Source of the DNA: Cyclobacterium plantarum
GTDB lineage: Bacteria > Bacteroidota > Bacteroidia > Cytophagales > Cyclobacteriaceae
Reading direction: 5' to 3'
Length of the DNA: 64,000 bases
Assembly (NCBI RefSeq): GCF_011290685.1
Contig: NZ_JAANYN010000005.1
Location: 372,001 to 436,000, forward strand
Positions 24,249 through 62,129 of this stretch are shown piece by piece. The notes beneath the pieces were generated by a model. The model saw nothing but the letters and a program-made list of their open reading frames with translations, did not search any database and was not told the origin of the DNA. Made by a program: the position numbers and the translations under genes. Within the stretch, counting starts at the first letter, position 1. The number at the start of each line of letters is the position of its first letter.

Positions 24249-24438
24249 GCGGCTTTTTATTAAAAAAATTGCTTAAATGAATGGATTCTTTATTCCAAAC
24301 CCTTATTTTTAATTGACAATTGTGGCTTAAATGGTTTCTAAATTGCCGGCTCATTACAAGTTACTTTTTCAGACTTCATTTCAATAATTTTTTTTTCGCA
24401 AAACCCCTGTAATCGGGAAACCTTCTGGAAAAGTAAAT

Positions 24439-24795: not shown

Positions 24796-24849
24796 GGTTT
24801 CCAGGTACTGAGTATGGTTTTTAGAGAAACTCTTTTCAATCAGGAAATT

Positions 24850-25076
24850 CAGATAATGCAGGATTTGCCATCCTGCTTAGGTTTCCGAATTGGGGATTAC
24901 AAATCCCCTTCATCTGCCCCACGGGATTACAAGTCCCGCAGAGCGGTACGTAGATGCGCTGTTCGACATTTGTAATGTTGGACCAAAGATAGTCAGGATT
25001 TGTAATCCTGCTTACGTACTCATCCTTGCGAATACGGGTGTCTTTGAGTAGGGAATTGTGTTGATCCTGTCCTACC
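24850..25076. repeat. palindromic repeat cluster C with tail
   Basis: One and a half units of the hairpin element: CAGGATT/CATCCTG (decayed), GGGGATT-ACA-AATCCCC, CGGGATT/AGTCCCG, then TTCGACATT/AATGTTGGA and CAGGATT-TGT-AATCCTG. It ends in TCTTTGAGTAGGGAATTG then TTGATCCTGTCCT, a tail also found at the end of cluster D (27560-27595). Confidence 0.85.
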
Positions 25077-25077
25077 A

Positions 25078-25200
25078 CCACTGAAAATTACCAACCAAAG
25101 GTATAATGATCATTCGAAAGTTTTAGTTAATTTAGCAGGATAAGCATCTAAAGCTGAATGCATTTACTTTGAAAATTAAAAGGCCTGTCAAAAGCATGAA
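25078..25200 (+). pseudogene. decayed tyrosine integrase fragment
   Basis: About 120 bases closely matching 31556-31682 of the intact prophage integrase, for example AATCAAAGGTATAATGATCA versus ACCAAAGGTATAATGATCAT and the shared GCATTTACTTTGAAAA/ACATTTACTTTGAAAA. Stops and a deletion destroy the frame. It begins exactly where the tail of cluster C ends. The following 118 bases to 25318 are AT-rich and probably hold the promoter of the next gene. Confidence 0.8.
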
Positions 25201-25318
25201 TGGGTTTTGGAGGCTGTGGGAAGAGATTCAAATTTAAAAATTAAACTAGCGAAACCTTACTATAGTTTTTATATATTGAAAGTGAAATAAGGTTACTTAA
25301 AATGGGAAGGAGGATAAG

Positions 25319-26242
25319 ATGAATTATAGACTTAAAATAGAGCATGCATCCGATAAAAACGGCAGCATAGACCTCCAAAGATTAGCATCTATTGCGGAAA
25401 GCCTAAGAAAAATTGCCGAGGGCGCCCTTCAATTGAGGCTAAAGGGTTTAAGCAAAGCCAAAAAAAACATCAAGCTAAATGATGCGCTGAAAATTTCTTT
25501 AACTGGAATCCAGAAAGGCAGTACCATTCTTAATTTGGAGTCTGAAAAGTTTAAAAGGACACTTTCAGGATATCAGACTGATATTTTTATGTTGGGACAT
25601 CAACAAGAATTGCCAGATAAAACACCCATTGCATTATTTGTTGAATCCTTTGATGAAGCCTTACATAATCCGAATGGTAGTGAGTTGTTGGACAAACTTT
25701 TGATGAAGGAGCTTTTAAAATTCAAAAAATCATTTCTGAATGACAATGAGATATTTTCCTTTCAGAAGGAGGGCTCTTTTCAAAAACTTACCCTTAAAAA
25801 GTCTGACTTTAGTAAAATTAAAATGGCAGAGGAGGAAATCCCACAACCTGAGGCTGCCCTGGTGAATGGAATAATTGAGGAATTGACTTACAGCAAGCTC
25901 AAAGTAAAAATTCAAACCAATGAGGGTATTGTAGAGGGATTTTTATCAGAAAGCATGAATCCTGAGGAAATTAAAAGATGGTGGGGAAGGGAGGCTACTG
26001 TTGAAGGGACCATGCACTACAAACCTGGGAGTAAATCAGTATTGGAAATAGAGAGGATATTTGAATCTAAACCAGGGGACGAATTTTTCTCCAAGAAACA
26101 AAAATATGAAAGTCTTGAGGAGCAGATTGCTCGACAAATACAGGAAGGGAAGGAAAACAATCCCTTGAATATGATTTGGGGTTCATGGCCTGGGGATGAA
26201 ACAGATGAAGAGTTTGAAGCATTGCTAAGAGATCTGGATTGA
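25319..26242 (+). CDS. large partner of PIN protein, putative antitoxin
   Basis: 307 residues, no signal peptide or membrane helix. Two parts are visible: an N-terminal alpha/beta region (residues 1-190, with KISLTGIQKGSTILNLES), and residues about 195-260 that look like a small beta barrel (LKVKIQTNEGIVEGFL then GREATVEGTMHY). The stop overlaps the PIN gene start (TGATG). Canonical VapB antitoxins are about 70-90 residues with a short DNA-binding end, so this would be an unusual partner. I do not recognise a named family. Antitoxin function is inferred from the overlap and order. Confidence 0.6.
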   Translation: MNYRLKIEHASDKNGSIDLQRLASIAESLRKIAEGALQLRLKGLSKAKKNIKLNDALKISLTGIQKGSTILNLESEKFKRTLSGYQTDIFMLGHQQELPDKTPIALFVESFDEALHNPNGSELLDKLLMKELLKFKKSFLNDNEIFSFQKEGSFQKLTLKKSDFSKIKMAEEEIPQPEAALVNGIIEELTYSKLKVKIQTNEGIVEGFLSESMNPEEIKRWWGREATVEGTMHYKPGSKSVLEIERIFESKPGDEFFSKKQKYESLEEQIARQIQEGKENNPLNMIWGSWPGDETDEEFEALLRDLD

Positions 26243-26697
26243 TGAAAAAAGTATTGTTAGATACTTCGGTGCTTCTTCATTATATGCGGAATGATGATTT
26301 AGCAAGGAGAACTGAGGATACTTATCATTTACTGAGTGATCCCGTAAAAATAATTTTATTTAGTGCCATCACTATTGGAGAAATTGAGGGGTTTTTCTTA
26401 AGGAATAAATATGGAGCAAAGCAAAGCGAGAGATGGGACAAGCTTTTGGGAAAGGCTATTGTCCTTAACATAGATGGGAAGGATAAAAAACTAATGAAGG
26501 CCTATGCTGAAATCCAAGCATATTGTCAAAACAATCACCCCACATTGAAGGCAGGTCAATCCAAAACGATTGGTCAAAATGATATGTGGATTGCAGCCAT
26601 AGCCTATGTAACTAAAGCCACTCTATATACAAAGGATGCTGATTTCGAGCATTTGAAAGGTGTTTTTATAGATGTAGTAAGAGTCGGTAAAAAATGA
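26242..26697 (+). CDS. PIN-domain ribonuclease (VapC-like)
   Basis: 151 residues from the ATG at 26242 (a TTG three bases earlier is possible). All four acidic PIN positions are present: Asp7 in LLDTSVLL, Glu in IGEIEG, Asp in GQNDMWIAA and Asp in YTKDADFEHL. The fold and length are those of VapC toxins, metal-dependent RNases that cut tRNA or rRNA. It overlaps the 307-residue partner upstream and a short frame downstream. All residues needed for activity appear intact. Confidence 0.8.
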   Translation: MKKVLLDTSVLLHYMRNDDLARRTEDTYHLLSDPVKIILFSAITIGEIEGFFLRNKYGAKQSERWDKLLGKAIVLNIDGKDKKLMKAYAEIQAYCQNNHPTLKAGQSKTIGQNDMWIAAIAYVTKATLYTKDADFEHLKGVFIDVVRVGKK

Positions 26698-26816
26698 CCG
26701 ATTGGAAGGACTATCAATCAATTGAGGTTGGTGAAAGGTTAATTCAAACGCCCCCCCTTAAATTGGGATTTTGGATTCGATGGCTTATAAGTGGTCCTCT
26801 TTGGTTGATGTGTTGA
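26694..26816 (+). pseudogene. truncated third frame of the PIN operon
   Basis: An ATG overlapping the PIN stop (ATGA) opens 40 codons (MTDWKDYQSIEVGERLIQ) ending near WLISGPLWLMC. The coupled start suggests a third operon gene, but it stops shortly after and nothing recognisable follows to 26945. Probably truncated by rearrangement. Confidence 0.35.
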
Positions 26817-26945
26817 CAAGTCGGGCTGTATCATTGGGACCAGTTGCCATTCTGCATTTCAAGGAATCCCCTGACAAGTAAAAAATTCCGGACAAAATTA
26901 CCGCAAGTCTTCGAATTCGAGTGAAATAAATTAAGTGCAGAAACT

Positions 26946-27296
26946 TTAGTAAATTGATTTAATTTTTTCGATCGATAATATCCTGATCACGGGTACAGCC
27001 ATCAGGAAAACAGGTACGTCATTTAGAGCTGGTTGAAAGATGTCTTCCTGGTCATCCAGGAGTTGAAATTTGATATTCACAGGTATGGGTTCCTGAGATA
27101 CCAGCTTAAATTCCTCTGGTAGGTTTTCAGGATAATAAAGATCGTCGTCGAATTTGATGAGGAACTGATAAAATCCCCTTGAAGCTACTGAGATGACCAC
27201 CTCAGCAGTACCCTCTTTATTTGGATCCATGCTATTTTCGCAGGAAAAAATCAGGATGAGGAAAAACAACAAGGTTTTGACTTTATAAATCTTCAT
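26946..27296 (-). CDS. small lipoprotein, unknown
   Basis: 116 residues. The ATG at 27296 gives a type II signal peptide ending in LIFSC (Cys about 19), so a lipid-anchored protein. The body (AEVVISVASRGFYQFLIKFD) looks like a beta sandwich. No family recognised. Its upstream region is palindrome cluster D. Confidence 0.65.
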   Translation of the reverse strand: MKIYKVKTLLFFLILIFSCENSMDPNKEGTAEVVISVASRGFYQFLIKFDDDLYYPENLPEEFKLVSQEPIPVNIKFQLLDDQEDIFQPALNDVPVFLMAVPVIRILSIEKIKSIY

Positions 27297-27340
27297 ATGT
27301 TTAAGACGTATGGGAGCGGGGAAATGATACAATACACTTG

Positions 27341-27600
27341 CGCTGTTCGACATTTGTATTGTCGGACCACCGATAAATCAGGATTTGCAATCCTGTTTCC
27401 GAGCTCGTTCGGGGGATTACAAATCCCCCTTATCTGTACCACGGAAATGCAAATTCCGCGGAGCGTATCGGGGACGAGCTGTTCGACATTTGCAATGTCG
27501 AACCCCAGATATATCAGGATTTGCAATCCTGCTTGCGTGCCCATTCTGGGGATTGCAGCTCTCTTTGAGTAGGGAGTTTTGTTGATCCTGGCCTGGCACC
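27341..27600. repeat. palindromic repeat cluster D with tail
   Basis: About 1.7 units: TTCGACATT/TATTGTCGGA (decayed), CAGGATT-TGC-AATCCTG, GGGGGATT-ACA-AATCCCCC, CGGAAAT/AAATTCCG, TTCGACATT-TGC-AATGTCGAA, CAGGATT-TGC-AATCCTG and half of GGGGATT. It breaks off within the third hairpin and continues as CTCTTTGAGTAGGGAGTTTT then TTGATCCTGGCCTGGCACC, the same tail as cluster C. Confidence 0.85.
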
Positions 27601-27948
27601 CCTGCAAATTATATAGCTTTTTAAAGTGGATATTCCTTTCTCAGCCATTCTACCGGTATTTTCAGCAACTGACTGAATTGTCGGATCATGGGCTCGATCG
27701 TCTTTGATTAAGTTAATGCACTAAATCAATTACCAAGAATAATCAATTTCTGAAAGGGATACACTTCTATTAAAACTAATTTCTAAAGAATTGAAAGCAA
27801 TAAGGGATTTTAATGGGAAAACGGTTATCTTAGAACGTTAAGGTAAAAAAGAAACGCTTCCTTTTGGGAAGCGTCGGTCCAAGAGAGCTACTCTTGGAGA
27901 TGTTCTAGTAATGCAAACCTAAAAAGGAATTTTTTAATTCCAAACAAT
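27601..27948. other. intergenic region with tandem hairpins before NYN gene
   Basis: No gene. Just ahead of the NYN gene are two perfect hairpins: ACGCTTCC-tttt-GGAAGCGT-like (27854-27874, one extra G in the loop) and CCAAGAG-agcta-CTCTTGG (27879-27897). Neither is followed by a T run. They end about 50 bases before the ATG and could be a structured 5' leader or a small RNA. Confidence 0.5.
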
Positions 27949-28563
27949 ATGGAAAAAAAAGAAAGGGTTATTGTTTACATCGATGGGTTTAACCTTTATT
28001 TTGGGATGACATCAAGTTATCCTGATATTAAATGGTTAAATGTTGAACTTCTGGCCAATAATTTACTAAAAAGTTCTCAGGAATTATTTGGAATCAAATA
28101 TTTTACTTCCATGGTCAGCAATAATCCTCCTAAGGAACAAAGACAACGAGCTTATATCAGTGCACTTGAAACCACATCAGTTCAAATAATTTATGGTCAT
28201 TATAAATCTAAAACTAAATCATGTAAACGCTGTGGTCATATTTGGAATGACAATGAAGAAAAGATGACAGATGTAAATATTGCTGTGGAAATGTTGAAAG
28301 ATGCAATGGAAGATAAGTTTGATATGGCCATGTTGATCTCAGGTGATAGTGATTTGGTTCCTCCTATTCTTGCTATCCATGAAAAATTCCCTCAAAAGCG
28401 AGTATTTGTTGCATTCCCACCAAATAGATCTAATGTAAGTGTAAAAAATGTCGCAAAAGGAAGCATGATCATTGGGCGGAAAAAACTAAAAGACTCCCAA
28501 TTCCAAGAACAAATTAAGTTGCAAAACGGGTATATTCTGAATAAACCAACTGAATGGAAATAA
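27949..28563 (+). CDS. NYN-domain (PIN-like) protein
   Basis: 204 residues. NYN signature: VYIDGFNLYF near residue 12, VNIAVEMLKDAM, and LISGDSDLVPPI with the catalytic acidic residues; fold related to PIN RNases and LabA/limkain proteins. A zinc-ribbon-like insert CKRCGHIW lies near residue 89. RNA cleavage is likely from the family but untested. Unusual structured leader (27854-27897). Flanked by mobile-element debris, so it may be cargo of an older element. Confidence 0.85.
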   Translation: MEKKERVIVYIDGFNLYFGMTSSYPDIKWLNVELLANNLLKSSQELFGIKYFTSMVSNNPPKEQRQRAYISALETTSVQIIYGHYKSKTKSCKRCGHIWNDNEEKMTDVNIAVEMLKDAMEDKFDMAMLISGDSDLVPPILAIHEKFPQKRVFVAFPPNRSNVSVKNVAKGSMIIGRKKLKDSQFQEQIKLQNGYILNKPTEWK

Positions 28564-28776
28564 GGCTGTTCCAGCAATAATCTCATCCACATTAAAAAAA
28601 AAACTGTAATACCGAATTTGATCAGGTATTTTTCATTATAATAAGAATAAGTTGAAAAAGAAGAAGAAGCAATTTTACCATTTAGATAATTACTCAGAGT
28701 TAACCGCAAATAATAGTACAAATCAGGAAAATATCCCCAAATTAAACCTACCAACCAATAATCCCTCTTTCTGGTC

Positions 28777-29277
28777 TTGATTTATACCGGATTAAGATTT
28801 GGTGATGGCATCTGTATTTCCAAAAGGTGGGTGGTAAATGGTATGCTGCATATCCTTACACATAAGACAGATGAAATAATAAGCATTCCCTTGCATCCTA
28901 ATTTGAAGGAAGTCCTGGAGAAATACGACTATGATTTGTCCAGTCTGGCTATTTCCAATCAAAAATTCAATAAGTACGTGAAGGAACGCTGTCTGGAAGC
29001 AGGAATCAACGCAGATGTGGAGGTGGTTAAGTATGCGAAAAGGATTAAAAAATACCATGTAATCCCCAAATACAAGTTGATAGCCAGCCATACGGGAAGG
29101 AGAACCTTTATTACCAATGCAATCCTTGCTGGAATACCATTATCTGTGATTCAAAGGATTACAGGTCATAAGAAGTTAGTAACACTTCAAAAATATGTCG
29201 ATATTGCGGAGGGAATTAATGTGGAGGAAATGGATAAATTCAGTAAGTTTTTTGGCTTAAGAATAGGGGAAAGGTAA
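28777..29277 (+). pseudogene. 5'-truncated tyrosine integrase
   Basis: Catalytic half of a tyrosine recombinase beginning mid-domain at IYTGLRFGDGI (first catalytic Arg) and continuing with HTGRRTFITNAI (H-x-x-R) and the final Tyr in LQKYVDIAE. It is the same family as the intact integrase at 30615, with matching blocks YDYDLS and RRTFITNAI. The N-terminal arm- and core-binding domains are missing; upstream sequence 28564-28776 is AT-rich and shows no trace of them. Same orientation as the two other integrase copies. Confidence 0.85.
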
Positions 29278-29339
29278 TCTTTTGAATTTTCCTCCTCGCT
29301 AAATTTATACATTTGATTGTTTTTTATTAATCAATAACG

Positions 29340-29690
29340 ATGAAAAGAGATTTAGAACTAATTAAGAAGATTCTTTTAGAATTAGAAAAGGATCAATCCC
29401 CCTTTGACTGGAAATCATTTGAATATGCTGATAAGATTAGCTATTGCTACCACATAAAATTGCTTTGGCAGGCAGACTTGATCGAAGCAATAGACATGTC
29501 GAGTAAAGGCAATCCTGATTGGGCACCAATTTGTTTAACTTGGCAAGGGCACGAATTTCTTGAAGCTGCCAAAAATGATAAAGCCTGGGATAAAGTTAAG
29601 AGTACAACTATAAGTGAAGGTGTTTCCATGCCCTTTTCTGTTTTGAAGGAATTATTATTAATCACAATAAAAACTGAACTTGGCTTTTGA
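29340..29690 (+). CDS. DUF2513 protein
   Basis: 116 residues with the DUF2513 pattern: MKRDLELIKKILLELEKD, then a winged-helix-like body with YHIKLLWQADLIEAI and LTWQGHEFLEAAKNDKAW. The family is common in phages and genomic islands and is probably a DNA-binding winged helix. It sits between an integrase relic and ssrA. Confidence 0.85.
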   Translation: MKRDLELIKKILLELEKDQSPFDWKSFEYADKISYCYHIKLLWQADLIEAIDMSSKGNPDWAPICLTWQGHEFLEAAKNDKAWDKVKSTTISEGVSMPFSVLKELLLITIKTELGF

Positions 29691-29703
29691 ATGAATAATA
29701 AAT

Positions 29704-30216
29704 ATGCAACTCCTCCAAGAACTTCTCAAAGATGTCCAATCCTCCCTAAAATCCTATAATCAGGGATTAGCCAAAAAAAACATGCTGGTGGATATTCCCT
29801 GGACTATTGTGGATGGTGAGCTAAATATTCAACGACTCATTTTCCGCAAGGACAAATCCCTGTACATTGTCAAAGAAGGTGAAATTCAGGAGAGTAAATG
29901 GGAGTATTTGGCTGCCATGGATTCCCTGGTGGTAAATGTTGGAGGTAAGAAGCTCCTTTTAAACGAAGTATTTGCTGATGGTAATGCTCTAATTCTTAAA
30001 AAGGATGGGATAACTACTGATTTTTTATGCTTTGTAAACCAAAAGGAAATCCCTGATTTAAACTTGGAAGGTTACCTTAGAAAAATTAAAGAATTAGAAC
30101 CTCCCACTAAATTTGATGAAATCAGTCAAAACGAATACTCAGATACTGATAAAAATATTATTTTTACCGTACTTGTGGTAATAGTACTTTTTTTAGTATG
30201 GAGCTTTTTACAATAA
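29704..30216 (+). CDS. tail-anchored protein, unknown
   Basis: 170 residues; a soluble beta-rich N-terminal part and one C-terminal membrane helix (about 150-168, IIFTVLVVIVLFLVWSF). It starts 13 bases after the DUF2513 gene, probably the same transcript. The central part (VDGELNIQRLIFRKDKSLYI) has no recognised motif. Confidence 0.55.
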   Translation: MQLLQELLKDVQSSLKSYNQGLAKKNMLVDIPWTIVDGELNIQRLIFRKDKSLYIVKEGEIQESKWEYLAAMDSLVVNVGGKKLLLNEVFADGNALILKKDGITTDFLCFVNQKEIPDLNLEGYLRKIKELEPPTKFDEISQNEYSDTDKNIIFTVLVVIVLFLVWSFLQ

Positions 30217-30227
30217 AAATACTGCCT

Positions 30228-30443
30228 TTATTCATTTTTCAGAGGGTCTGATAAAAATATCCTTTGGCAATTCCTACAAAAAGGTTCACGGAGGATATAT
30301 TCAGCAAAATCTATTGATTCGACTTTTATTATTTTATACCCTTTAAAGTTTATTTTGAATCCGCAACAAGGGAGCTGGTTTGTGTTGGTTAGAAGGTGCC
30401 CCTTATTTCGATAATTTATCGGTTCCGCAATATACATTTTCAA
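30228..30443 (-). CDS. small cysteine-containing protein, doubtful
   Basis: 71 residues with two cysteine pairs (PCCGF and PFCRNCQRIF) that could make a small zinc knuckle. It lies convergent to the gene at 29704 and just beyond the ssrA terminator. Coding status is uncertain. Confidence 0.3.
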   Translation of the reverse strand: MKMYIAEPINYRNKGHLLTNTNQLPCCGFKINFKGYKIIKVESIDFAEYILREPFCRNCQRIFLSDPLKNE

Positions 30444-30450
30444 ATATAAA

Positions 30451-30478
30451 AAAAGGCCTGAATATTTTCAGGCCTTTT
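30451..30478. terminator. original ssrA terminator, left behind by prophage
   Basis: Perfect 12-bp stem AAAAGGCCTGAA / TTCAGGCCTTTT with loop TATT, two bases outside the 37-bp att repeat. In the uninterrupted chromosome it would lie directly after the 3' end of ssrA on the minus strand, where its T run serves leftward transcription. Confidence 0.8.
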
Positions 30479-30480
30479 TT

Positions 30481-30517
30481 GTGGAGCTGGCGGGATTCGA
30501 ACCCGCGTCCAGATAGG
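30481..30517. repeat. attL, 37-bp direct repeat (3' end of ssrA)
   Basis: Identical to 62093-62129. Contains the T-arm and acceptor 3' strand of tmRNA in reverse complement (GGATTCGAACCC region). Sequence diverges immediately on both sides, so 37 bp is the full core identity. Only this fragment of ssrA is at the left end; the intact gene is at the right. Confidence 0.95.
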
Positions 30518-30587
30518 CCCTATACAGCGTTTAAAGGCTATTTTAATTTTTTAGTAGATCGAAAATCACCCGTTTTTGAACACTTCT

Positions 30588-30609
30588 GTGACTGAATTGT
30601 GACTGAATT
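30588..30609 (+). repeat. candidate integrase arm sites, left
   Basis: Tandem 11-base repeats GTGACTGAATT at 30588 and 30599. A third exact copy is at 30720-30730 within the integrase coding sequence, and a similar tandem pair lies 52-73 bases inside attR (62020-62041). Tandem short repeats on both sides of the core fit arm-type binding by the integrase N-terminal domain. Confidence 0.6.
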
Positions 30610-30614
30610 TTTCT

Positions 30615-31877
30615 ATGTTTAGGAAATCAAAAAAACCTCCTAAAATGAACATACAAGCAGTTTTAAAGAATGTAAATCCAAAAAGTAAGATTGGAACAAT
30701 CAACATTTATTTAAATTTCGTGACTGAATTTGACCGAAATCAGATTTTTGTAAAGACTCCAATCAGGATTGAAAAGCGTTATTGGAATAATGGTAAAATC
30801 AGAAAGTCCCATCCTAATTACAATGAATACTCCCAACTTTTAGCAAGTGAACAAGGTGCTGTTTTAGACCTTGTGAACGACTTAAGGCTTCAAGGGGTAC
30901 CAATTACCTCTGATTCATTTAAGTCTTACAGAGACAAAAAAAATGAGGGAATCAAAGACCTTGTTACCCTTGCTAAGGAATACATTGCCATTAGAACTGA
31001 TGCAACAAAAAGATTACGGGATAAACTAAACAATCTTGTTACCAGATTGGAAGATTTTTCAAATGGCAAGAAATTCTACCATAGTCAAATAAATCAAAAA
31101 TGGGTTAATGCTTTTTCCACATACTTACAAACACCACAACCTAACCACCCTAATAAGTATCTGAGAACCGGACAACAACCAGCAACAATTCACAAAACTT
31201 TTAAATTCTTAAAACAGGTGCTTCATTTTTATTCCAAAACCGGAGTGATTGATGATAGTTTTAAATCCCTGAATTACCCCAAAGCATTCACACAAAAACA
31301 AATGGTGTTCATTGAATCAGAAATCAGGAAATTAATTGAATACCAACCCACAAGGGATTCAATTAAAAGGGTTAAGGATTTGGCCTTAATCCAGCTTTTT
31401 ACAGGCTTAAGGTATTCGGATGCCATTAAAATCAATCAGTCCAATATTTTCAATGAACAATTGGCAATAACAGCGGAAAAAACCAACCAAAATATCAACA
31501 TTCCACTTCATCCAGCCTTAAAAAATATCCTTGAAAAGTATGATTATGACTTATCACCACTTAAAATTACTAATCAAAGGTATAATGATCATTTGAAAGA
31601 TTTAGTTAAATTAGCAGGTATTGAATCAAAAGCTGAATACATTTACTTTGAAAATGGGGTAAAGAAAACCTGTCAAAAACACAAATATGAATTGGTGGCT
31701 TCTCATACCTTCAGAAGAACCTTTATTACCAATGCCATCATAAAAGGCATTCCGTTACACGTTATTCAAAGTATAACAGGCCATACAACATTAAAACAGT
31801 TGAGTGAATATGTTAATATTGCTGATAGTATTAAACAACAGGAAATGAATAAAATGAATGAATTGTTTAGGGTATGA
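30615..31877 (+). CDS. int: tyrosine integrase of the ssrA prophage
   Basis: 420 residues. N-terminal SAM-like core-binding domain (residues about 100-200) and catalytic domain (about 225-420). Catalytic residues: Arg in LFTGLRYSDAI, His and Arg in SHTFRRTF, His in GHTTLKQL and Tyr in SEYVNIAD. Phage_int_SAM_5 type common in Bacteroidota elements. It is placed directly inside attL, as expected, and its reading frame covers one candidate arm site. The stop overlaps the next gene (ATGA), so the integrase and the cargo trio are co-transcribed. Confidence 0.95.
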   Translation: MFRKSKKPPKMNIQAVLKNVNPKSKIGTINIYLNFVTEFDRNQIFVKTPIRIEKRYWNNGKIRKSHPNYNEYSQLLASEQGAVLDLVNDLRLQGVPITSDSFKSYRDKKNEGIKDLVTLAKEYIAIRTDATKRLRDKLNNLVTRLEDFSNGKKFYHSQINQKWVNAFSTYLQTPQPNHPNKYLRTGQQPATIHKTFKFLKQVLHFYSKTGVIDDSFKSLNYPKAFTQKQMVFIESEIRKLIEYQPTRDSIKRVKDLALIQLFTGLRYSDAIKINQSNIFNEQLAITAEKTNQNINIPLHPALKNILEKYDYDLSPLKITNQRYNDHLKDLVKLAGIESKAEYIYFENGVKKTCQKHKYELVASHTFRRTFITNAIIKGIPLHVIQSITGHTTLKQLSEYVNIADSIKQQEMNKMNELFRV

Positions 31878-33535
31878 GTGCAAACAAAGATTTTAAATCC
31901 ATAAGATTCTTAAAATACATTGATCCAATAAATGATAAAACTTATAAGATTTCTAATACTTCCATTGATCATATAGAGAAATACATTTTTGAAGAATTAG
32001 TTGAAGGTGATAGGTTAATTTTTGAAAGGTTAGTTTATAATGATGATTGTTTTAAAAATATTTCTTTTAATAATATAAAATTAGAATTTAACTTTTGTGA
32101 TTTCCGTCAAATTTTGAGATTAAATTTAAATAATACAGAATTAAAAATAAGTTCAAATTTACAAGAAGATTGTAAAGAAATAGGATTAAATATCAAAGGA
32201 ATAGCAAAATCAGTTTGTCTTACAAATTTGAACCTTGATGAATTTGAAATATCAAGTTCAAATATAAGCGATTTGACGGTAACTAGAAACAATATAGATA
32301 CTTTTTCAATTTCGAATAAAACTAGTATTGGGAAATTTTCAATTTCAAATGAAAAAAAAGACTACAAAATTAATAAATTATTTTTTGATTTAACAAAAAT
32401 TGATGAATTATTAATTTCTTATCTTGATACCTTAAGCAATATTTATATAAATTTTTGTGACATCAAAACATTCAAGTTTGAAGAAGTTTGTATAAGTGAC
32501 CAAATAAAATTTGAAAGATATAATGTAGATGATTTAAAAGTATTAAAGTCAAAAATCACTAATTTTATTATCAATTTTTACGAAACAGGATATAAAAGAG
32601 AATTAAATAGTTTTTCATTAAACAACATTGAATTTGCAGATGATTCAAAAATTTCACAACTATTAATTAAACAAAAAGGTAATCGTTGTAATATTAATTC
32701 AATCCTAATATCAGCTGTTGAGAAAATTGATATTTCCAACTTAATTGTTAATAAAATAACTGTAAAAAATCAAGTAATCAACGAATCAATATTCAGTAAT
32801 GTAAAGTTTGGGTCATTAGAATTAAATGGATTCGCTTCTAGGAATAAATTTAATTTCTCAAATTGTACAGTGATAGATAAAAATGGTTTATTGATCTTAA
32901 ATAATTCTGTTTTAGATAATGTTGCGTTTAATCCATCGTTTTTGCATCAATTTAAGGAAATAAGGTTTACTAATTCTTCACTTATAAACTTACAGGCAAA
33001 TAATTTAACTGAAATACCCACAAGAACTATAAGGCCTTTTAAAAGAGACATTGAAACAAATTACTTAACTCTATATAGAGAGTTAAAAATTTTGGCTCAA
33101 AATTATGGTGATAATTATTTATTTCATAAACTTAAAGCACTTGAATACAATGAAAGAATTTGGAATTGGACATTTCATCCTTTTAAGTCCAAGGATTATT
33201 CCGTCAAAGATTATTTCATACTTTTAACAAATAGAATATCAAATAACCATACTACTAATCCATTTTTAGCATTTGGTTGGATTTTGGGATTAATTATTCT
33301 GTATGTTTATAGTATAAATTGTTTGACTAATTCGGATTTTGGTAACTTTCTTATATCTAATCACACTGATTATTTTATTGTGCCATTTAAATTATTTATT
33401 TCAAATAAAGATGAAATTATTGGAATTGCTGATAAATTCCCTAATTATTTATTTTATATAGATATCGGTTATCATATTATTTTAAGTTACTTAATTTACC
33501 AAATGATCGCAGCATTCAGAAAATTTAATAGATAA
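31874..33535 (+). CDS. beta-helix-like membrane protein, paralogue 1
   Basis: 553 residues, unusually rich in Ile, Asn and Lys. Residues about 30-380 show irregular repeats of short beta strands spaced about 20 residues (for example TNLNLDEFEISSSNISDLTV), as in pentapeptide- or beta-helix-like proteins. It is followed by a helical segment (YLTLYRELKILAQNYGDN then ALEYNERIW) and two membrane helices at about 463-482 and 530-545, ending IYQMIAAFRKFNR. The ending is shared with the next gene. Similar architecture is known in uncharacterised Bacteroidota proteins. Translationally coupled to the integrase, so likely expressed in the lysogen. A role in superinfection immunity is inference only. Confidence 0.7.
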   Translation: MSANKDFKSIRFLKYIDPINDKTYKISNTSIDHIEKYIFEELVEGDRLIFERLVYNDDCFKNISFNNIKLEFNFCDFRQILRLNLNNTELKISSNLQEDCKEIGLNIKGIAKSVCLTNLNLDEFEISSSNISDLTVTRNNIDTFSISNKTSIGKFSISNEKKDYKINKLFFDLTKIDELLISYLDTLSNIYINFCDIKTFKFEEVCISDQIKFERYNVDDLKVLKSKITNFIINFYETGYKRELNSFSLNNIEFADDSKISQLLIKQKGNRCNINSILISAVEKIDISNLIVNKITVKNQVINESIFSNVKFGSLELNGFASRNKFNFSNCTVIDKNGLLILNNSVLDNVAFNPSFLHQFKEIRFTNSSLINLQANNLTEIPTRTIRPFKRDIETNYLTLYRELKILAQNYGDNYLFHKLKALEYNERIWNWTFHPFKSKDYSVKDYFILLTNRISNNHTTNPFLAFGWILGLIILYVYSINCLTNSDFGNFLISNHTDYFIVPFKLFISNKDEIIGIADKFPNYLFYIDIGYHIILSYLIYQMIAAFRKFNR

Positions 33536-33552
33536 AAAATGAGAAATTTAAA

Positions 33553-35154
33553 ATGATACTCAGTTTTAAACATTTTGAAATTCAAGGCGATAGGCTACTT
33601 TATAACGGTAATGAGCAAATTACAGGCTTATCAGCAGATCTTTATAAATTAAATTATAATTTTATTTTTGTAAATTCAAAGTTTAAAGGGGAATTTGATA
33701 TAAAATTTGAATCCAAAAAAATAATATTAAAAGGCTGTTCTTTTGAAGGAGATATTGAATTCAGTGGAAATAAAAACATATTTAAAATTGAGTCTTTTAA
33801 TTCTAATTTTACGATTAATGAACCTGAATCTGATGTTACGATTAAGTCTACTAATATAGATGGACTAGGAAAGATAAAAGACATAAGTTCTTTTCAATTG
33901 TCTATCGAAATTTATTACCTAAGCGATCTAGTTATTGAAAATGTAAAATCAGAAAATATCAGTATTCAATCCAATATTACCCAAGAAAAGCCTTTAAATT
34001 TAGATATCTATGTTGAAAATTCTGGCACCTTTACTATTCTTGATGTTTATATTAATACAATAAATTACAATAACTCAATTTTTGAAAAGTTTGTTTTTGA
34101 TACCTGTACTTTTAAACACCCCAATAAGTATTTTAATTTTTTGATGCCTCTTGCTAAATCATTGATTATTAGAAATATTAAATCAAACTTTGAGACTATA
34201 AACTTATGTGTTGATGATTTTGACCTATACGATTTATTAAGAGAAATTGAGTTAAAGGACATAGAATGTGAACTTCTAATACTAGATTTCAAACAACATA
34301 TTCCACTAGCATTTGAAAGAATTTTATTTTCTAGCGATAATAGGTTTGTAATTGAAACTCATAATGCTTGTGGGATGCTTTCTGTTCAAAATTTAGAGTT
34401 ATCTGGTTATTTTTCTAAACAGAATATAATTAAAGATATCGAGATAAAAAATCTTAAATTCGATTTTTTTCAAACTGACAGTGAATTTATATTTAGAAAT
34501 TTGTCCTTTATAGAAAAAGGCGAATTGGTTATTGGCAATTCTAATTTAAATAATGTTACTTTTAATCCTTCCATTTTACACGAATTTAATAAAATCACCA
34601 CTTTTGGCTCTGATTTTTTTGGTATGAATATAACTGGATTTAAATTTTTAAATATAAATCATTTTGCTAAAGAATATATTGATATTAATAAACGGTTGTT
34701 TCCTACTAATAACATTAAATTGTTCAGGTATTTAAAAAATTTTTCCTTAGCTGATGGAGATTTGGATTCATTTCAAAAATATAGATCGTATGAACTTAAC
34801 GAGACTTATTTTCATAGTAGGCAATTGAAAAGGTATGAGAAATTTATATTGTGGTTTAACAAAATAACAAATAATCATACAACTGATTGGTTTAAAGCTT
34901 TTAAATTAATTCTAATCACTTTTTCTTTTTATTTGTATTTAATTACCTCCTATCTTTTATATTCCCAAAATGATTTTCAATTTATGGATGTTTCAAAAAT
35001 ATTACCTAATTTGCTTTCACCTGTTAGTTTTTTAATAAATAATGATGAATTTTGTTTTCCTAATTTAATTTATTTTTTTGATGTATTCTATAATATTATA
35101 ATTGGTTTACTCCTATACCAAATGATTGCGGCATTTAGGAAATTTAATCGTTAA
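33553..35154 (+). CDS. beta-helix-like membrane protein, paralogue 2
   Basis: 533 residues and the same plan as its neighbour: strand repeats to about residue 360, a conserved block LNNVTFNPSILHEFNKI (LDNVAFNPSFLHQFKEI in paralogue 1), a helical linker (KLFRYLKNFSLADGDLDSFQ, RSYELNETYF), the motif NKITNNHTTDWFKAF and two membrane helices ending YQMIAAFRKFNR. The repeat regions have diverged strongly while the C-terminal third is conserved. That suggests a variable outer part on a common membrane base. It lies 17 bases after paralogue 1. Confidence 0.7.
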   Translation: MILSFKHFEIQGDRLLYNGNEQITGLSADLYKLNYNFIFVNSKFKGEFDIKFESKKIILKGCSFEGDIEFSGNKNIFKIESFNSNFTINEPESDVTIKSTNIDGLGKIKDISSFQLSIEIYYLSDLVIENVKSENISIQSNITQEKPLNLDIYVENSGTFTILDVYINTINYNNSIFEKFVFDTCTFKHPNKYFNFLMPLAKSLIIRNIKSNFETINLCVDDFDLYDLLREIELKDIECELLILDFKQHIPLAFERILFSSDNRFVIETHNACGMLSVQNLELSGYFSKQNIIKDIEIKNLKFDFFQTDSEFIFRNLSFIEKGELVIGNSNLNNVTFNPSILHEFNKITTFGSDFFGMNITGFKFLNINHFAKEYIDINKRLFPTNNIKLFRYLKNFSLADGDLDSFQKYRSYELNETYFHSRQLKRYEKFILWFNKITNNHTTDWFKAFKLILITFSFYLYLITSYLLYSQNDFQFMDVSKILPNLLSPVSFLINNDEFCFPNLIYFFDVFYNIIIGLLLYQMIAAFRKFNR

Positions 35155-35157
35155 ATT

Positions 35158-35856
35158 ATGGGTAAAAAGATACCTTTTTTCAAAAAGAATGCCCTAATTT
35201 TATTATTAGTAGGAATTCCATTGTTTTTATTTTTGTTTATTTCTATTTTTTTCAAAAGCCATTCAAATATTTGGGTATTTCCTTTTAATGTTGAAATATG
35301 GGGTACTGTATCAGATTGGTTTATGGTTTGGGTGACAGCTATTACAGCTATATATTTAATTAAGACTTTTAAGGAACAACAAAGGCTTACTGAAATTGAA
35401 AATTACGATTATAAGGAAAAAATTAAACCCGAGTTTAAAATTGTTGCTGAAATTGATCATTTTTCAGTTGATTTAGATAATACAGCAAAAGCCATAGTAA
35501 GTTTAATTATCTATGTTAGAAATTATAATGCGTATAACGTTAAAATTACTACAGATAAAGTTTTAGATACTGCAAGCCTACCGTTTACTTTACCGGAAGA
35601 AAATTATAAAATTATTTATAAAGATGATTCAATTTCAATTCCATATTTGAAGTTCAATATTTGTGAAAAGATTTTATCAATTAAGCAAGATTTTATTAAA
35701 AAGGAATACGTAGATGATGGATTTCTCTATTTTAGACTGAAATTTCGTTTTGATTTTTCTGATTTTGAACACACCACTTATTTTCAGGAAATTGAAATTT
35801 CAGCAAATAATAACAAAGAAATAGAATGTTTTAGTACTCCAGTTTTACCAAACTAA
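35158..35856 (+). CDS. two-helix membrane protein of the cargo trio
   Basis: 232 residues: membrane helices at about 10-30 and 58-75 (WFMVWVTAITAIYLIKTF), then a soluble beta domain (FKIVAEIDHFSVDLDN, YVRNYNAYNVKI). It starts three bases after paralogue 2, making a tight trio. The DWFMVWVTAITA helix resembles small membrane proteins common in phages and islands. No known function. Confidence 0.65.
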   Translation: MGKKIPFFKKNALILLLVGIPLFLFLFISIFFKSHSNIWVFPFNVEIWGTVSDWFMVWVTAITAIYLIKTFKEQQRLTEIENYDYKEKIKPEFKIVAEIDHFSVDLDNTAKAIVSLIIYVRNYNAYNVKITTDKVLDTASLPFTLPEENYKIIYKDDSISIPYLKFNICEKILSIKQDFIKKEYVDDGFLYFRLKFRFDFSDFEHTTYFQEIEISANNNKEIECFSTPVLPN

Positions 35857-35885
35857 TAAAATAAAAATTGGTTTAGTGGTCAATT

Positions 35886-36212
35886 CTATTTAACACAAAC
35901 AAATCTAAGCCTTCCATCCTTCATTTCATTCAAGTACCGTTCTAAACTGTCAATTGTCCGTTCTAAGCCTGTCTTTTGCCTATGGCACTTACCACACAAG
36001 GTTTGCAGGTTGGTTGGCTCTAATTCCAAATGAGGTGCCAATCTGCGTGGTATGATGTGATCCACAACAGCCCCTTCACTAACAATTTCCCATTGGTCAC
36101 AAAGTTCACAAACTGGATTTGCTTCAATATAGTGTTTTCTGAGTTTCAGCCAATCTTTTTTCCTGTAAAAGTCTGTATCAAAGCCATAGCCTTTAGGATT
36201 CCATTTTTTCAT
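35886..36212 (-). CDS. HNH endonuclease
   Basis: 108 residues. Zinc-binding cysteines in NPVCELCDQW and LCGKCHRQK, and the HNH core VVDHIIPRRLAPHLE then EPTNLQTLCGKCH. Small phage HNH enzymes of this kind usually sit beside the terminase and aid genome packaging. Here it is 18 kb from the terminase by the linear map, on the opposite side of the structural operon. It is convergent with the cargo trio. Confidence 0.9.
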   Translation of the reverse strand: MKKWNPKGYGFDTDFYRKKDWLKLRKHYIEANPVCELCDQWEIVSEGAVVDHIIPRRLAPHLELEPTNLQTLCGKCHRQKTGLERTIDSLERYLNEMKDGRLRFVCVK

Positions 36213-36309
36213 TATTTTAGTGTTTTGAATTTAAATTTTAGTAAATTAACCGCTAACTTTTAGTTTCAAGTTATTACCACCTAATGTTTTGCCAATAATA
36301 AAAGTAAAT

Positions 36310-37302
36310 ATGAGTTTGTTAAACAGTGCAAAAAATGCAATTAGCCTAAAGTTAAATGATACGGTTTTTTTAACTTTTTTTGGTTCTCTTATAATTTTAA
36401 ATTGGAAACCGTTATTTTATCTATTTTTTTCTTCCAATAATCCTGGAGAAAGAATTCATTATATTGAAAATTCTATAGTTAACGATACTTTAGGTAATTT
36501 GTACACCGCAATTGGAATTACTTTAATATATGGTTTTTGTTACCCAATACTTTTAATTGGATTTAATTATGTTAAAAGTATTTACTTGCAAAGAGAGGAA
36601 GTAAATAATGAAAAGATTTATAAGAAAAAGATTAATTCAAATACAGCAATTTTTCAATCTGAATTAGCTAGTAAGGGCGCAAATAAGATTGAAGAGTATA
36701 AAGAGATTATTAAAATAAAAGAGGAACGAATTTCAGAATTAGAATCTTCTATAAAAAAATCAAATCAGGATAATCAAAAGAAAGTAAGAGATTATGAAAA
36801 TACATTGAATCAAGTTAAAGAAAGTAATTCAGTATATTCTGAAAAGATTAATGAATTAGAGCGAGAAAATAATAAACTTAAACAAGAAGTTTTAAATGTT
36901 GAATCATATGTTAGTAAATATTCAGGTATTCTTCAAAAGATTTCTTATTTAATATCCTTTGATTATCAAGGAAACATTAATTTCATTTTTAATCATTATT
37001 TCAATAGTATTCTAAATAATGAATTTAATAAAGAATATTATAATCGTATTTTAAAATCTGAGGAATTTGAAATTATTTTTAAAGACTATGCGGAACACAA
37101 TACAGATAGCATTCATAAATTTAATTTTGAAAATATTGTTCCTACCTACCGCCAAAAATTAGAAAGTGAATTGAATATTAATAATGAGAATTTTGAATCA
37201 AGTAATTTTTCTAATATTTTATTTCTTTTTCGATTAAAATGGTTGAAAGAAAGATTTGATACGATTGAAAGAGAACTTGTTGAATTGGATAAACCTATTT
37301 GA
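36310..37302 (+). CDS. membrane coiled-coil protein
   Basis: 330 residues from the ATG at 36310 (a TTG at 36289 is less likely). Two membrane helices (about 20-38 and 62-85), a long coiled coil (about 95-205; IKIKEERISELESSIKKS, INELERENNKLKQEVL) and a C-terminal helical domain of about 120 residues. No family recognised. The 97-base divergent gap to the HNH gene probably holds its promoter. It may belong with the lysogenic cargo. Confidence 0.65.
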   Translation: MSLLNSAKNAISLKLNDTVFLTFFGSLIILNWKPLFYLFFSSNNPGERIHYIENSIVNDTLGNLYTAIGITLIYGFCYPILLIGFNYVKSIYLQREEVNNEKIYKKKINSNTAIFQSELASKGANKIEEYKEIIKIKEERISELESSIKKSNQDNQKKVRDYENTLNQVKESNSVYSEKINELERENNKLKQEVLNVESYVSKYSGILQKISYLISFDYQGNINFIFNHYFNSILNNEFNKEYYNRILKSEEFEIIFKDYAEHNTDSIHKFNFENIVPTYRQKLESELNINNENFESSNFSNILFLFRLKWLKERFDTIERELVELDKPI

Positions 37303-37348
37303 ATTTCATAAGAAAAAATTTAATTACGATATAAATTAATTTAATGAT

Positions 37349-37624
37349 ATGACACAACTAAAAGAATTCATTGAAGCCTATTCGGATTTACTCAAATCTG
37401 ATAATGAAATTGTTCACTGTGACAATGATGGAAATATTTATACCACCGTTGAAGAGGCTTACGCTGCCAAAAAAGCTGGTAAGGAAATTGAACTTATAAA
37501 CCTAAAGGAAACAGCCATTGAGGAATTAAAGGATATTGGGATTAACAAAAATGAAGCCTCTCAAATGGTTCAAATTCTTAATTTTCTTTATAAGGGTAAA
37601 AGAGGTAGGAAACCCAAAAAGTAA
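37349..37624 (+). CDS. small acidic protein with RGRKPKK tail
   Basis: 91 residues. Helical, with a C-terminal AT-hook-like end (KGKRGRKPKK) suggesting DNA contact. The middle reads VHCDNDGNIYTTVEEAYAAK. Follows the coiled-coil gene by 46 bases and ends before a bidirectional terminator. Possible small regulator; unrecognised. Confidence 0.6.
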   Translation: MTQLKEFIEAYSDLLKSDNEIVHCDNDGNIYTTVEEAYAAKKAGKEIELINLKETAIEELKDIGINKNEASQMVQILNFLYKGKRGRKPKK

Positions 37625-37642
37625 ATTGACCAGCAACAAATA

Positions 37643-37665
37643 AGGCCATCTTAATTTGATGGCCT
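37643..37665. terminator. bidirectional terminator between convergent groups
   Basis: Stem AGGCCATC / GATGGCCT with loop TTAATTT, between the rightward gene ending at 37624 and the leftward tail-fibre gene ending at 37671. The downstream T run is interrupted, so strength is uncertain. Confidence 0.6.
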
Positions 37666-37670
37666 GTATT

Positions 37671-40256
37671 TTAGAGGTTTTTAATAAACATCCAAAGAGA
37701 ATCACCCATTTGTTGATATCCACTTAAAGCAGGATGAACCCCATTAGACCATCTTTCTATTTGTTCTGTAGTTCTTGAATTCGCTGGAACTAGTGATTTT
37801 GGAAAATTAAATTTTCTATCAATGTTGCAATTCATTTGTGCCACAAATATTTTGTTATTTCTATTTTCTATTGTGTCATAATTATCAATTAAAAATGATA
37901 CCCATTCTTTGTAATGCTCTAAATATTGTTTAAGTATATGGGAATTTGAATATGATACCCCAAAAGCATCTTGACTTATTGCTGGTGGAATAGTAACTAA
38001 AATAACAATATTAATATCAGGAACATCATTTCTGATATTTGTTATAAGCGTATCACAATTATTTTTGATTGTATTTAGCTTTGTTTCACTTATAGAATGA
38101 AATACGTCATTTATTCCAAGGTGTATTGTGATCAAATCAGTACTTTGTAAAGTGAATGAATTGGTTGTTAAATAATTTGAAAAATCTAATTGATTCGTTG
38201 ATGAATTCCAAAAGGGACTTTCTGTATTATTTACAAACCAATCAAATGTTTTTCCGGAGTGGCCTTCGTGTTTATTGATTCCGCTTCCTTGTGTTCCTAT
38301 AAATGTTACCGTTGGATTGGTATTGTAATCAGTTGTAATTGTTGATACATAATTCCCATTGGCTGTTGTTGAATCCCCAATACACAACACTTTTAAACTA
38401 GATTGTCCATCATTTATTCCATTGGTAATAACTGTTGTTGTTTTTGTTGCTAATAGTGTTCCTAAATAAAAAACATCTATAGTTAAATTACTATTGGCAG
38501 CTGATCCACTTGGTATATATCTCCAACCTCTTTCATAATGATTTCCTAGATTACAGGTTACTTTAATTTTAAGTTGTTCCAATGGAATATTTGAAAATAT
38601 TACATTTTCCCAAAATATATTCATTTCAACATTTTCAGTTGTATATATATTTGATGGTAAAAGTATTTCGGCTTTGGGTTCAAAGATTTCAGGTAAACCT
38701 ATTTTTTCCTGAATGTATCCTATGAAAGTATCACTAAAGCCAACAATAGGAATGGAAATAGCGGTTTTAACATAGGTTCTTTCACTGCCCGAAGTTGTAA
38801 GCGTTCCCACACTTGTTAAACTTCCATTAGTTACAAACCTTGGCCATCCGTTCCCCTCTGAGGTGGGTAAAATTGATGATGATGAAGCTCCGTATCTATC
38901 CACAAATTGATTGCATTGCCAAATAAGAAATAGTTTTTCGCCTGTGGCATTTTCTATTAAATCATCAAATACACAAAGAATATCCTTTGTTTCAAATGGA
39001 AGAATTGAAACGTTTAATATTTTGTCTTTTAAAACAGCACCCGTTGCATCACCAACAAAAACCCGAAATCTTATTTTGGTAATTTCCGTGTCCCTTGCCC
39101 TAACCTTTACATAAACAGAATTGAAATTTTGAGGCATTCCAATAGCGGTTCCCCATCCTGAAAAGGTGGAAGTTGTATTTAGCCATTGTGCCGAATCTTC
39201 ATCAAAAGTTGGCGTTATGTCGGTTGAAATTGATTCCTTTATATACGTGTTATCAAATGGTGTATTATCATCCTGATTAAAAACAGGATGTACCATTCCA
39301 TTAAAATCACTACGCTTTAAAAATGAATCAAGTCCAGTTAACTCAAATGGTTCAAATGATGTTGGGTTAAACCCTCTTTCTATTTGAAAAGTTGAAACAT
39401 TATTTGTTGTTACCCGAATATATTTTGCGTTGTTTGGTGCAGTACGTGTATTAGATGAACTATTTTCTCCGCTAATAAATACCTTGTTTTCATCGTAAAA
39501 AGCGGTTCTATTTCCGTAACTTAAAGAATAGGTTTCTCCCGGTTCCACTTCTATAAAATGGGAAGCCAAATAATTTTCGTTACCGTTCATTACCTCTCCT
39601 GTTGTTTCACTGATAAATTTATCCGGTATACTATCAGGATCATTGATATTAAAAAGGTTTTTTCCCGGTACTTTACTAGCTTTTTTGTCTATTTGAGAAT
39701 TTAAACCTGTTACCGCTTCTGTTAGCTCTGTTTTCTCTGTAAATGATTCTAATCCTTTTATTTCGTACGGCTCCCAAGCTGTTGAAACTGTCCCTTTTTC
39801 TAATTGAAATCCAGCCCAAGCCCCCTTGCTTGTTCCACACCTTATAAACACTGCATTATTTGGAATTAAAATTGTTTCTCCTGACGTGTTAATAGTATCG
39901 GAACCAGAAATAAAAACCTTTTCACTATCATAAAAAGCACACCAATGTTTAAAATTTACCGTGTAATTTTCACCCCCTTCAACCTGTATATAATTTGTTG
40001 CGTTATAGCTTGTATTATAAGCTAAATTTCCATTATTTGGATTAACGTAATAATCTAAAGTGTTATCAGGATCATCTATATTAAACAGGTTCTTTCCTGT
40101 AAGTTTATTTGCTTTTCTTTCAACCTCTGAAGACAAATTTTCTAAATCATCTGTCTTTGAATATTCTTGTAAATCTAGCTTAGTTGCATAATTTGAACTT
40201 ATTACTGTAATTACCTCATTATCTATTAACTGAACGATTACATTAAATTCTTCCAT
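37671..40256 (-). CDS. SGNH/GDSL-hydrolase tail fibre protein
   Basis: 861 residues. Residues about 55-170 and 195-310 are two copies of one domain (each begins GKNLFNI-x-DPD, contains FYD-x-x-KVFISG and ends in W/F-EP-(Y/F)-E-(I/L)-x-GL). Residues about 625-861 are an SGNH hydrolase: GDST near 634, GIND in LGINDVF, and D/H of the last block in NGVHPALSGYQQMGD. The phage position (last gene of the tail module) suggests a fibre that binds and de-acetylates or de-esterifies a surface polysaccharide. It is the only enzyme in the tail besides possible tip domains. Confidence 0.85.
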   Translation of the reverse strand: MEEFNVIVQLIDNEVITVISSNYATKLDLQEYSKTDDLENLSSEVERKANKLTGKNLFNIDDPDNTLDYYVNPNNGNLAYNTSYNATNYIQVEGGENYTVNFKHWCAFYDSEKVFISGSDTINTSGETILIPNNAVFIRCGTSKGAWAGFQLEKGTVSTAWEPYEIKGLESFTEKTELTEAVTGLNSQIDKKASKVPGKNLFNINDPDSIPDKFISETTGEVMNGNENYLASHFIEVEPGETYSLSYGNRTAFYDENKVFISGENSSSNTRTAPNNAKYIRVTTNNVSTFQIERGFNPTSFEPFELTGLDSFLKRSDFNGMVHPVFNQDDNTPFDNTYIKESISTDITPTFDEDSAQWLNTTSTFSGWGTAIGMPQNFNSVYVKVRARDTEITKIRFRVFVGDATGAVLKDKILNVSILPFETKDILCVFDDLIENATGEKLFLIWQCNQFVDRYGASSSSILPTSEGNGWPRFVTNGSLTSVGTLTTSGSERTYVKTAISIPIVGFSDTFIGYIQEKIGLPEIFEPKAEILLPSNIYTTENVEMNIFWENVIFSNIPLEQLKIKVTCNLGNHYERGWRYIPSGSAANSNLTIDVFYLGTLLATKTTTVITNGINDGQSSLKVLCIGDSTTANGNYVSTITTDYNTNPTVTFIGTQGSGINKHEGHSGKTFDWFVNNTESPFWNSSTNQLDFSNYLTTNSFTLQSTDLITIHLGINDVFHSISETKLNTIKNNCDTLITNIRNDVPDINIVILVTIPPAISQDAFGVSYSNSHILKQYLEHYKEWVSFLIDNYDTIENRNNKIFVAQMNCNIDRKFNFPKSLVPANSRTTEQIERWSNGVHPALSGYQQMGDSLWMFIKNL

Positions 40257-62050: not shown

Positions 62051-62077
62051 TCCCTGTAACTATTTAAATTACAGGGA
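62051..62077 (-). terminator. prophage-supplied ssrA terminator
   Basis: Stem TCCCTGTAA / TTACAGGGA with a nine-base loop, followed on the minus strand by nine T, 16 bases beyond the tmRNA 3' end. It replaces the host terminator now stranded at 30451-30478. Confidence 0.8.
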
Positions 62078-62092
62078 GTTAAAAACGTAAAA

Positions 62093-62129
62093 GTGGAGCT
62101 GGCGGGATTCGAACCCGCGTCCAGATAGG
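62093..62129. repeat. attR, 37-bp direct repeat (3' end of ssrA)
   Basis: Second copy of the core, forming the end of the functional tmRNA gene. The next bases (gaaacacc) belong to the host ssrA body; at attL the corresponding bases (ccctatac) are phage. Confidence 0.95.

Follow-up and report, generated by a model that had tools for sequence, protein, structure and literature searches.

Beta-solenoid membrane proteins behind a prophage integrase in Cyclobacterium plantarum: probable defence cargo with a fold match to the HalA channel

What does a prophage gain by carrying membrane-protein genes directly behind its integrase? The question is raised by a stretch of 64,000 nucleotides from Cyclobacterium plantarum (contig NZ_JAANYN010000005.1, positions 372,001 to 436,000, forward strand; hereafter the window), in which a prophage of 31,649 base pairs (bp; 30481–62129) is integrated in the gene for transfer-messenger RNA (tmRNA), with one copy of a 37-base direct repeat at each end. 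Three genes follow the integrase, whose products we call A, B and C (Table 1). An earlier note, made from the letters alone, had described them as a tightly packed, non-structural trio of membrane proteins filling about an eighth of the element, two of them paralogues, and as a possible exclusion or abortive system. The packing and the proportion are as it described: the start of A overlaps the integrase stop by 4 bases (ATGA), A and B are 17 bases apart and B and C 3, and the 3,983 bp of the three genes make up 12.6% of the prophage. We consider it likely that A and B are prophage cargo with a defence role, and we lean, with moderate confidence, towards their being gated channels of the type of HalA, the effector of the Hailong system, acting by growth arrest. 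C we treat apart from them, as an accessory gene.

A and B are paralogues that align with 34% identity over 272 columns of their C-terminal halves (expectation value (E) 5e-31). An AlphaFold2 model of A, built on a 25-sequence alignment (mean predicted local distance difference test (pLDDT) score 79), consists of a beta-solenoid at about residues 17–371, helices at 398–457, a first transmembrane helix (TM1) at 463–485, short helices, and a second (TM2) at 525–550; in A, TM1 alone passed the hydropathy cut-off and TM2 is taken from the model. The tail of A reads QMIAAFRKFNR, and N457, Q543, A546, A547, F548 and R549 are invariant in the 25-row family alignment, a set that shrinks in this end to the F and R once more distant members are included. 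Model and family alignments agree with the strand-repeat N-terminus on a conserved two-helix membrane end that the earlier note had drawn from the translations, and the structure prediction it called for returned the solenoid, the linker helices and both membrane helices. Database families contribute little: neither protein had a Pfam match at E 1, PHROGs gave nothing better than E 0.07, none of five members scanned against NCBIfam came near a cut-off (A, at E 0.011, was far under), and similarity of the N-terminus to the pentapeptide-repeat chains 2xt2 and 2xt4 was weak and non-significant (profile E 0.012–0.052).

On which side of the membrane the solenoid lies bears directly on what the proteins could do. 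No N-terminal hydrophobic segment was found in A or B, and the lysines and arginines (K/R) of B number 5 over the 30 residues that precede TM1 and 3 over the tail of 7, as against 1 for the whole 42-residue loop; together these favour, by sequence, a cytoplasmic solenoid and tail. A surface-acting superinfection exclusion would place the solenoid outside the cell or in the periplasm, where it would block adsorption or DNA entry of related phages. Prophage carriage and membrane anchoring would suit such a role, the K/R counts of two distant relatives (before TM1, in the loop and after TM2: 5, 4 and 4 in L037; 5, 3 and 3 in L070) are less clear as to topology, and the solenoid of the full-length model resembles extracellular right-handed beta-helices (tailspikes and polysaccharide lyases, Z up to 19.2), although such a match tells of fold only. 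Because A and B show no hydrophobic segment at the N-terminus, B has the K/R balance just given and non-phage relatives lie near intracellular defence systems (see below), we judge surface exclusion quite unlikely, and the exclusion half of the earlier proposal loses ground accordingly. The idea that the solenoid is a tail-spike-like structural piece was dropped in view of the same missing segment, the membrane tail and the relatives in defence islands.

A sister prophage in C. lianum (L019, the same as L026) permits a direct comparison. It has the same attachment (att) sequence next to its integrase, and its genes match those of the window at 98% identity for the integrase, 97% for the tape measure, 95% for the HNH endonuclease, 92% for a 91-residue open reading frame (ORF) and 88% for a tail gene. 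Across the cassette, A is missing, an unrelated ORF of 310 residues stands in its place behind the integrase, and identity is 42% for B and 51% for C. Variable, non-structural genes thus occupy a fixed place in otherwise conserved prophages, in keeping with the cargo status claimed for them, and the cassette is one of two variable zones between the sisters. The 310-residue ORF itself (L019 12416–13348, minus strand) had no Pfam, PADLOC or NCBIfam match.

Within B the divergence is not evenly spread. Residues 1–440 of the window protein and the sister copy match at 7–53% in blocks of 40 residues (mean 31%), as against blocks of 97%, 95% and 100% in the membrane end (441–533), and the corresponding step in the nucleotide sequence lies about 300 bases before the stop codon. 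The alignments fit either of two histories: a new solenoid replaced the old one on a retained pore end, or two different solenoids came to share one tail through recombination at the pore end. Under either route a module border lies near the junction of linker and membrane domain, and the sensor ends of B-type proteins seem to be exchanged between viruses. The earlier picture of a variable sensor on a conserved membrane end gains a sharp boundary from this comparison.

The same comparison bears on a more ordinary explanation, namely that A and B serve phage physiology (as holin-like proteins or in the control of lysis or lysogeny) or are housekeeping channels with no part in defence. Membrane proteins encoded behind an integrase could be expressed around integration or excision, holins include two-helix proteins, and the sister prophage has further diverged genes, both non-structural and at the tail end. 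Set against this, the divergence inside B ends at the membrane domain, PHROGs gave no lysis match and nothing usable for A, B or C, and the family also has chromosomal members that lie outside prophages and close to defence genes; we hold this explanation to be rather unlikely.

Relatives of A and B are sporadic in Bacteroidota. With A as the query, 9 of 295 genomes of the family were positive at E 1e-4, and a profile of the membrane end recovered 13 of 395 genomes of the phylum at E 1e-3, the genome of the window being included both times and 3 of the 16 rows of the phylum search (G433, G579 and G597) being weak and interrupted by stops. A scan of genome contigs gave 20 loci in Cyclobacterium, Echinicola, Algoriphagus, Flavobacteriaceae and Sphingobacteriaceae. 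In all, 34 loci hold 39 distinct members whose membrane end is complete; duplicates (L025, L026, L027, L029, L030, L045 and L046) were excluded from cluster and tree counts, and the fragment L023 from the tree. Profile comparison unites the alignments of the phage and cellular branches in a single family (probability 99.9, E 7e-34). When the 39 membrane ends are placed on a tree, a branch with support 100/98 sets off 16 rows, of which 12 are prophage members. A tblastn search with A of 50,697 phage and 72,556 plasmid records returned no match, viral contigs searched with A or B alone returned the same prophage only, and no paper describing this architecture in defence was found in an open-licence library.

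The surroundings of these relatives bear on a role in defence. Among members in prophages, those of the window, of L019 (after the 310-residue ORF) and of L023 (behind a decayed integrase) follow an integrase, and those of L017, L020, L028 and L031, with L022 as a remnant, lie one to three genes from the gene for the small terminase; L020 has three tandem copies and L017 three copies at two places. L023 (65–2021 in G249), where an integrase with internal stops is followed by a truncated A-like gene at the contig end, is a decayed copy of the integrase/A-like arrangement. Elsewhere, type I restriction genes recognized by PADLOC lie near L021, L034, L037, L068 and L070, and L038 has gene clusters in common with L037 as well as a PF02384 match. 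At L070 the member sits between hsdS and hsdR, and at L037 it overlaps the end of hsdS by 4 bases. The member of L072 adjoins gajB and gajA of Gabija (E 7e-206 and 5e-153), L035 has a full-length Avs3a match 4.5 kb away and a HerA match beside it, an OLD/PtuA-like ATPase is encoded near L065, and L017 adjoins a protein kinase gene. These neighbours were hand-picked for PADLOC, mostly as large ORFs, 21 of 40 matching at E ≤1e-10, a figure that is not a rate and has no matched control. Separately, in a Sphingobacterium locus (L036 3651–7045, plus strand) a relative lies about 2.3 kb from a 721-residue protein with two-component ADP-ribosyltransferase and glycohydrolase domains, which adjoins a 404-residue GajB-like helicase.

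A count made against expectation points the same way. A type I methylase of family PF02384 is found less than 10 kb away (at 1.2–7.4 kb) for at least 6 of 38 relatives, where 0.26 would be expected (Poisson P 3e-7, or 8e-6 with the sister pair L037/L038 counted once); the count takes in 38 of the 39 members, L040 being left out, and is a lower bound because for members in named records distances were taken inside the locus only. The first 26 members, from 24 genomes, account on their own for 6 near a methylase against 0.19 expected. The relatives are thus enriched in defence islands, and the search of prophages and defence islands proposed in the earlier note found A/B relatives in both.

Such proximity could also mean that the proteins guard restriction itself, each acting as a second-line channel that would halt the cell on sensing anti-restriction or a failure of restriction activity. 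The logic would be like that of PrrC, which PMC12657218 mentions together with Hailong. The methylase count speaks for a guard, as do the gene placements at L070 and L037. Yet for 32 of the 38 relatives counted, including A and B, no type I methylase was found within 10 kb, the Gabija and Avs neighbours point to defence islands generally, and the 6 rows with type I neighbours do not cluster on the tree (5 changes needed, against a shuffled mean of 5.7). We regard a dedicated restriction guard as unlikely.

How would such proteins act? The 161 C-terminal residues of A, modelled alone (pLDDT 85), had as their top structural alignment residues 180–355 of HalA (PDB 9nyi_A; VIA-align Z 8.9, root mean square deviation (rmsd) 4.2, 145 of 161 residues aligned; runner-up Z 5.5), where the aligner itself notes that helical bundles with Z below about 13 may share no more than a common arrangement. 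The assignment as a HalA-type C-terminal membrane domain is one of fold, made with a predicted model. When the full-length model of A was searched in the PDB with Foldseek, HalA came second (E 8.6e-3, probability 1.00) with an alignment of 332 columns against its 333-residue chain. In VIA-align HalA was missing among the best 50 rows listed for the full-length model, which were filled by beta-helix and leucine-rich-repeat chains aligned to the solenoid. Leucine-rich-repeat receptor matches of the full-length model and a photosystem match to the C-terminal profile were judged chance or repeat matches. Entry 9nyi contains four HalA chains.

From these comparisons we infer a mechanism along the following lines. 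A and B, carried as lysogenic cargo and expressed in the lysogen, would each combine a cytoplasmic beta-solenoid serving as sensor and gate, a helical linker and a two-helix pore domain, the last perhaps assembling as a tetramer, as in HalA. In an uninfected lysogen the solenoid would hold the pore shut; on infection by another phage, a trigger read by the solenoid (candidates are a phage protein, or the loss or gain of a nucleic-acid ligand) would open it, ions would leak and growth would stop before the invader could multiply. Having a pair of paralogues whose solenoids differ, together with solenoid exchange on a fixed pore, would broaden or update the range of triggers. The defence role suggested in the earlier note gains support from the HalA fold match, from the type I, Gabija and Avs genes near relatives and from the methylase enrichment.

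Several observations weigh against this interpretation, beginning with the aligner's caution just quoted. The full-length Foldseek superposition on HalA is geometrically poor (template-modelling score 0.33, rmsd 12.8), no row of that PDB search reached E 0.001, and the C-terminal model alone retrieved HalA at E 3.8 with probability 0.28; a search of BFVD with the full-length model likewise gave no E of 0.001 or less. Profile comparison to HalA remained at chance level (E 2.2 and 0.78), and no sequence homology to HalA was found with the membrane-end profile or with single sequences. In length the solenoid is roughly double the part of HalA before residue 180. A motif search for a HalB-like nucleotidyltransferase in the ORFs of the loci collected by that point gave 9 hits, all judged to be chance (two in members themselves, one in a serine dehydratase), and in the 15 genomes, of 24, with comparable coordinates every PF01909 row was more than 20 kb from any member, tests that could both miss a highly divergent HalB. 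The window neighbours scanned had no nucleotidyltransferase Pfam match either. A and B themselves have no PADLOC match at E 1. Some relatives have ordinary neighbours, such as serine dehydratase at L066 and LepA at L069, and none of the 12 members, mostly from prophages, that were added to the first 26 has a methylase within 10 kb, the nearest being about 17 kb away in G195. Finally, divergence between the sister prophages extends beyond the cassette: a 337-residue ORF is 64% and a 115-residue tail gene 42% identical, and an 861-residue tail-end protein has no match in L019, variable tail ends being expected from host range. Because both a HalB partner and sequence homology were looked for and neither was found, we call A and B HalA-like and claim no membership of Hailong proper.

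The third gene is a different matter. C, the third membrane protein of the earlier note, does have two membrane segments predicted by hydropathy, and its relatives are few: of 295 genomes, 4 besides that of the window gave a match, in one case a weak one. It stands beside relatives of A and B at 2 of the 34 loci, those of the window and of L019. At L090 and L091, in the genus of Echinicola shivajiensis, it lies next to an HNH remnant without A or B and with different upstream genes, and one of the two genomes (G111) has A/B relatives elsewhere. Because C is seldom beside A/B and is found without them, the functional trio does not hold as a unit, and the notion of A, B and C as one obligate system was dropped. 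We read C and the HNH gene as the right border of a cassette with a variable slot to its left, in which C need not act with A and B. Matches of C to Asp3/Sec-ASP3 (E 0.004 and 0.013 in NCBIfam and Pfam) fall far under the curated cut-offs and were rejected.

Table 1. Positions of the attachment sites and of the genes in and around the cassette (window coordinates).
Feature	Position	Strand	Basis
attL	30481–30517	no strand	37-base direct repeat, copy of tmRNA 3' end, identical to 62093–62129
Tyrosine integrase	30615–31877	+	Pfam Phage_integrase E 6.9e-14; PHROG integrase E 2.4e-32
A, HalA-like beta-solenoid/two-helix membrane protein, 553 residues	31874–33535	+	ORF, paralogy to B, AlphaFold2 model, structural alignment
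B, paralogue of A, 533 residues	33553–35154	+	ORF, sequence comparison with A and sister prophage copy
C, 232 residues, two N-terminal membrane segments and soluble domain; accessory	35158–35856	+	
HNH endonuclease, right-hand border of cassette	35886–36212	−	Pfam HNH E 3e-10
attR	62093–62129	no strand	3' end of tmRNA (tmRNA 62093–62495, minus strand)

The cassette is low in guanine plus cytosine (G+C): the values for A, B and C are 23%, 24% and 26%, compared with 30% for the whole prophage and 45.5% for window positions 1–24000. Promoter-like sites in 30200–37800 numbered 47 against 50.4 in shuffled sequence, a chance rate that carries no weight. With up to 3 mismatches allowed, the window holds no third copy of the first 30 bases of the att repeat. 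Terminator-like hairpins on the minus strand occur at both prophage ends (30449–30480 and 62051–62077): the hairpin to the left of attL probably served as tmRNA terminator originally, and the other, supplied by the prophage end, lies directly downstream of the tmRNA, so that integration may keep ssrA terminated. Immediately left of attL, positions 24000–30480 have 37.5% G+C against 45.5% to their left and contain a DUF2513 gene (29340–29690), and this stretch may be what an earlier element left at the same ssrA site.

Three further prophage genes merit mention. The 861-residue tail-end protein (37671–40256, minus strand) has a C-terminal GDSL lipase/acylhydrolase domain (Pfam E 3.5e-9) and is possibly a receptor-processing esterase. 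Near attR, a 588-residue protein (57746–59512, minus strand) is 60% identical to the product of a gene in the prophage of G220 and shows by eye motifs like those of superfamily 2 helicases (LLIDEYH, QQIAGRIRD), with no match in PHROG or NCBIfam. The 337-residue membrane/coiled-coil protein beside the cassette (36289–37302, plus strand) matches phrog_4780 at E 1.4e-9 and, at the identity given above, has diverged further between the sister prophages than the genes next to it.

If the reading of A and B as HalA-like channels is right, HalA effectors would no longer be confined to a two-gene system with a nucleotide signal but would belong to a broader group of gated channels in Bacteroidota, and sister prophages with the same pore and different solenoids would offer a natural experiment on which domain sets phage specificity. 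More speculatively, and doubtfully at present, the family could form a new class of stand-alone immune receptors: solenoid-gated HalA-type channels with no nucleotidyltransferase partner, which would read their trigger directly through an exchangeable beta-solenoid and evolve by sensor swapping, distributed among prophages, restriction operons and defence islands of Bacteroidota.

Among known systems, Hailong offers the closest points of contact. HalA has a regulatory N-terminus and a C-terminal two-helix membrane domain, and its N-terminal crown binds oligodeoxyadenylate, also named in the title of 9nyi, and gates the channel. Passages on the mechanism (PMC13275509, PMC12657218, PMC12265719, PMC12657230 and PMC12483538) describe poly-dA made by HalB as blocking the HalA ion channel (PMC13275509) and phage exonuclease activity as releasing the effector (PMC12657230). 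A and B resemble HalA in domain order, and A also in the fold of the whole C-terminal domain; they differ in having no HalB-type nucleotidyltransferase found nearby and no detectable sequence similarity, and in being tandem paralogues carried as prophage cargo, with longer solenoids that appear to be exchanged between prophages. Pentapeptide-repeat proteins of the McbG type share a beta-solenoid architecture, whereas A and B lack the Pfam match noted above and have their solenoid fused to a membrane domain. RexB is an ion channel, and RexAB-like defence and gp30/31 of mycobacteriophage Sbash are likewise prophage-borne lysogenic defences with a membrane component, built from different proteins; for A and B no soluble RexA-like partner was recognized. 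Panoptes 2TM-beta (PMC12657230) and Cap1 similarly set a regulatory domain on a two-helix membrane module, whereas A and B have no recognized cyclase, Cas10 or nucleotidyltransferase partner and bear a beta-solenoid in place of the small nucleotide-binding domain.

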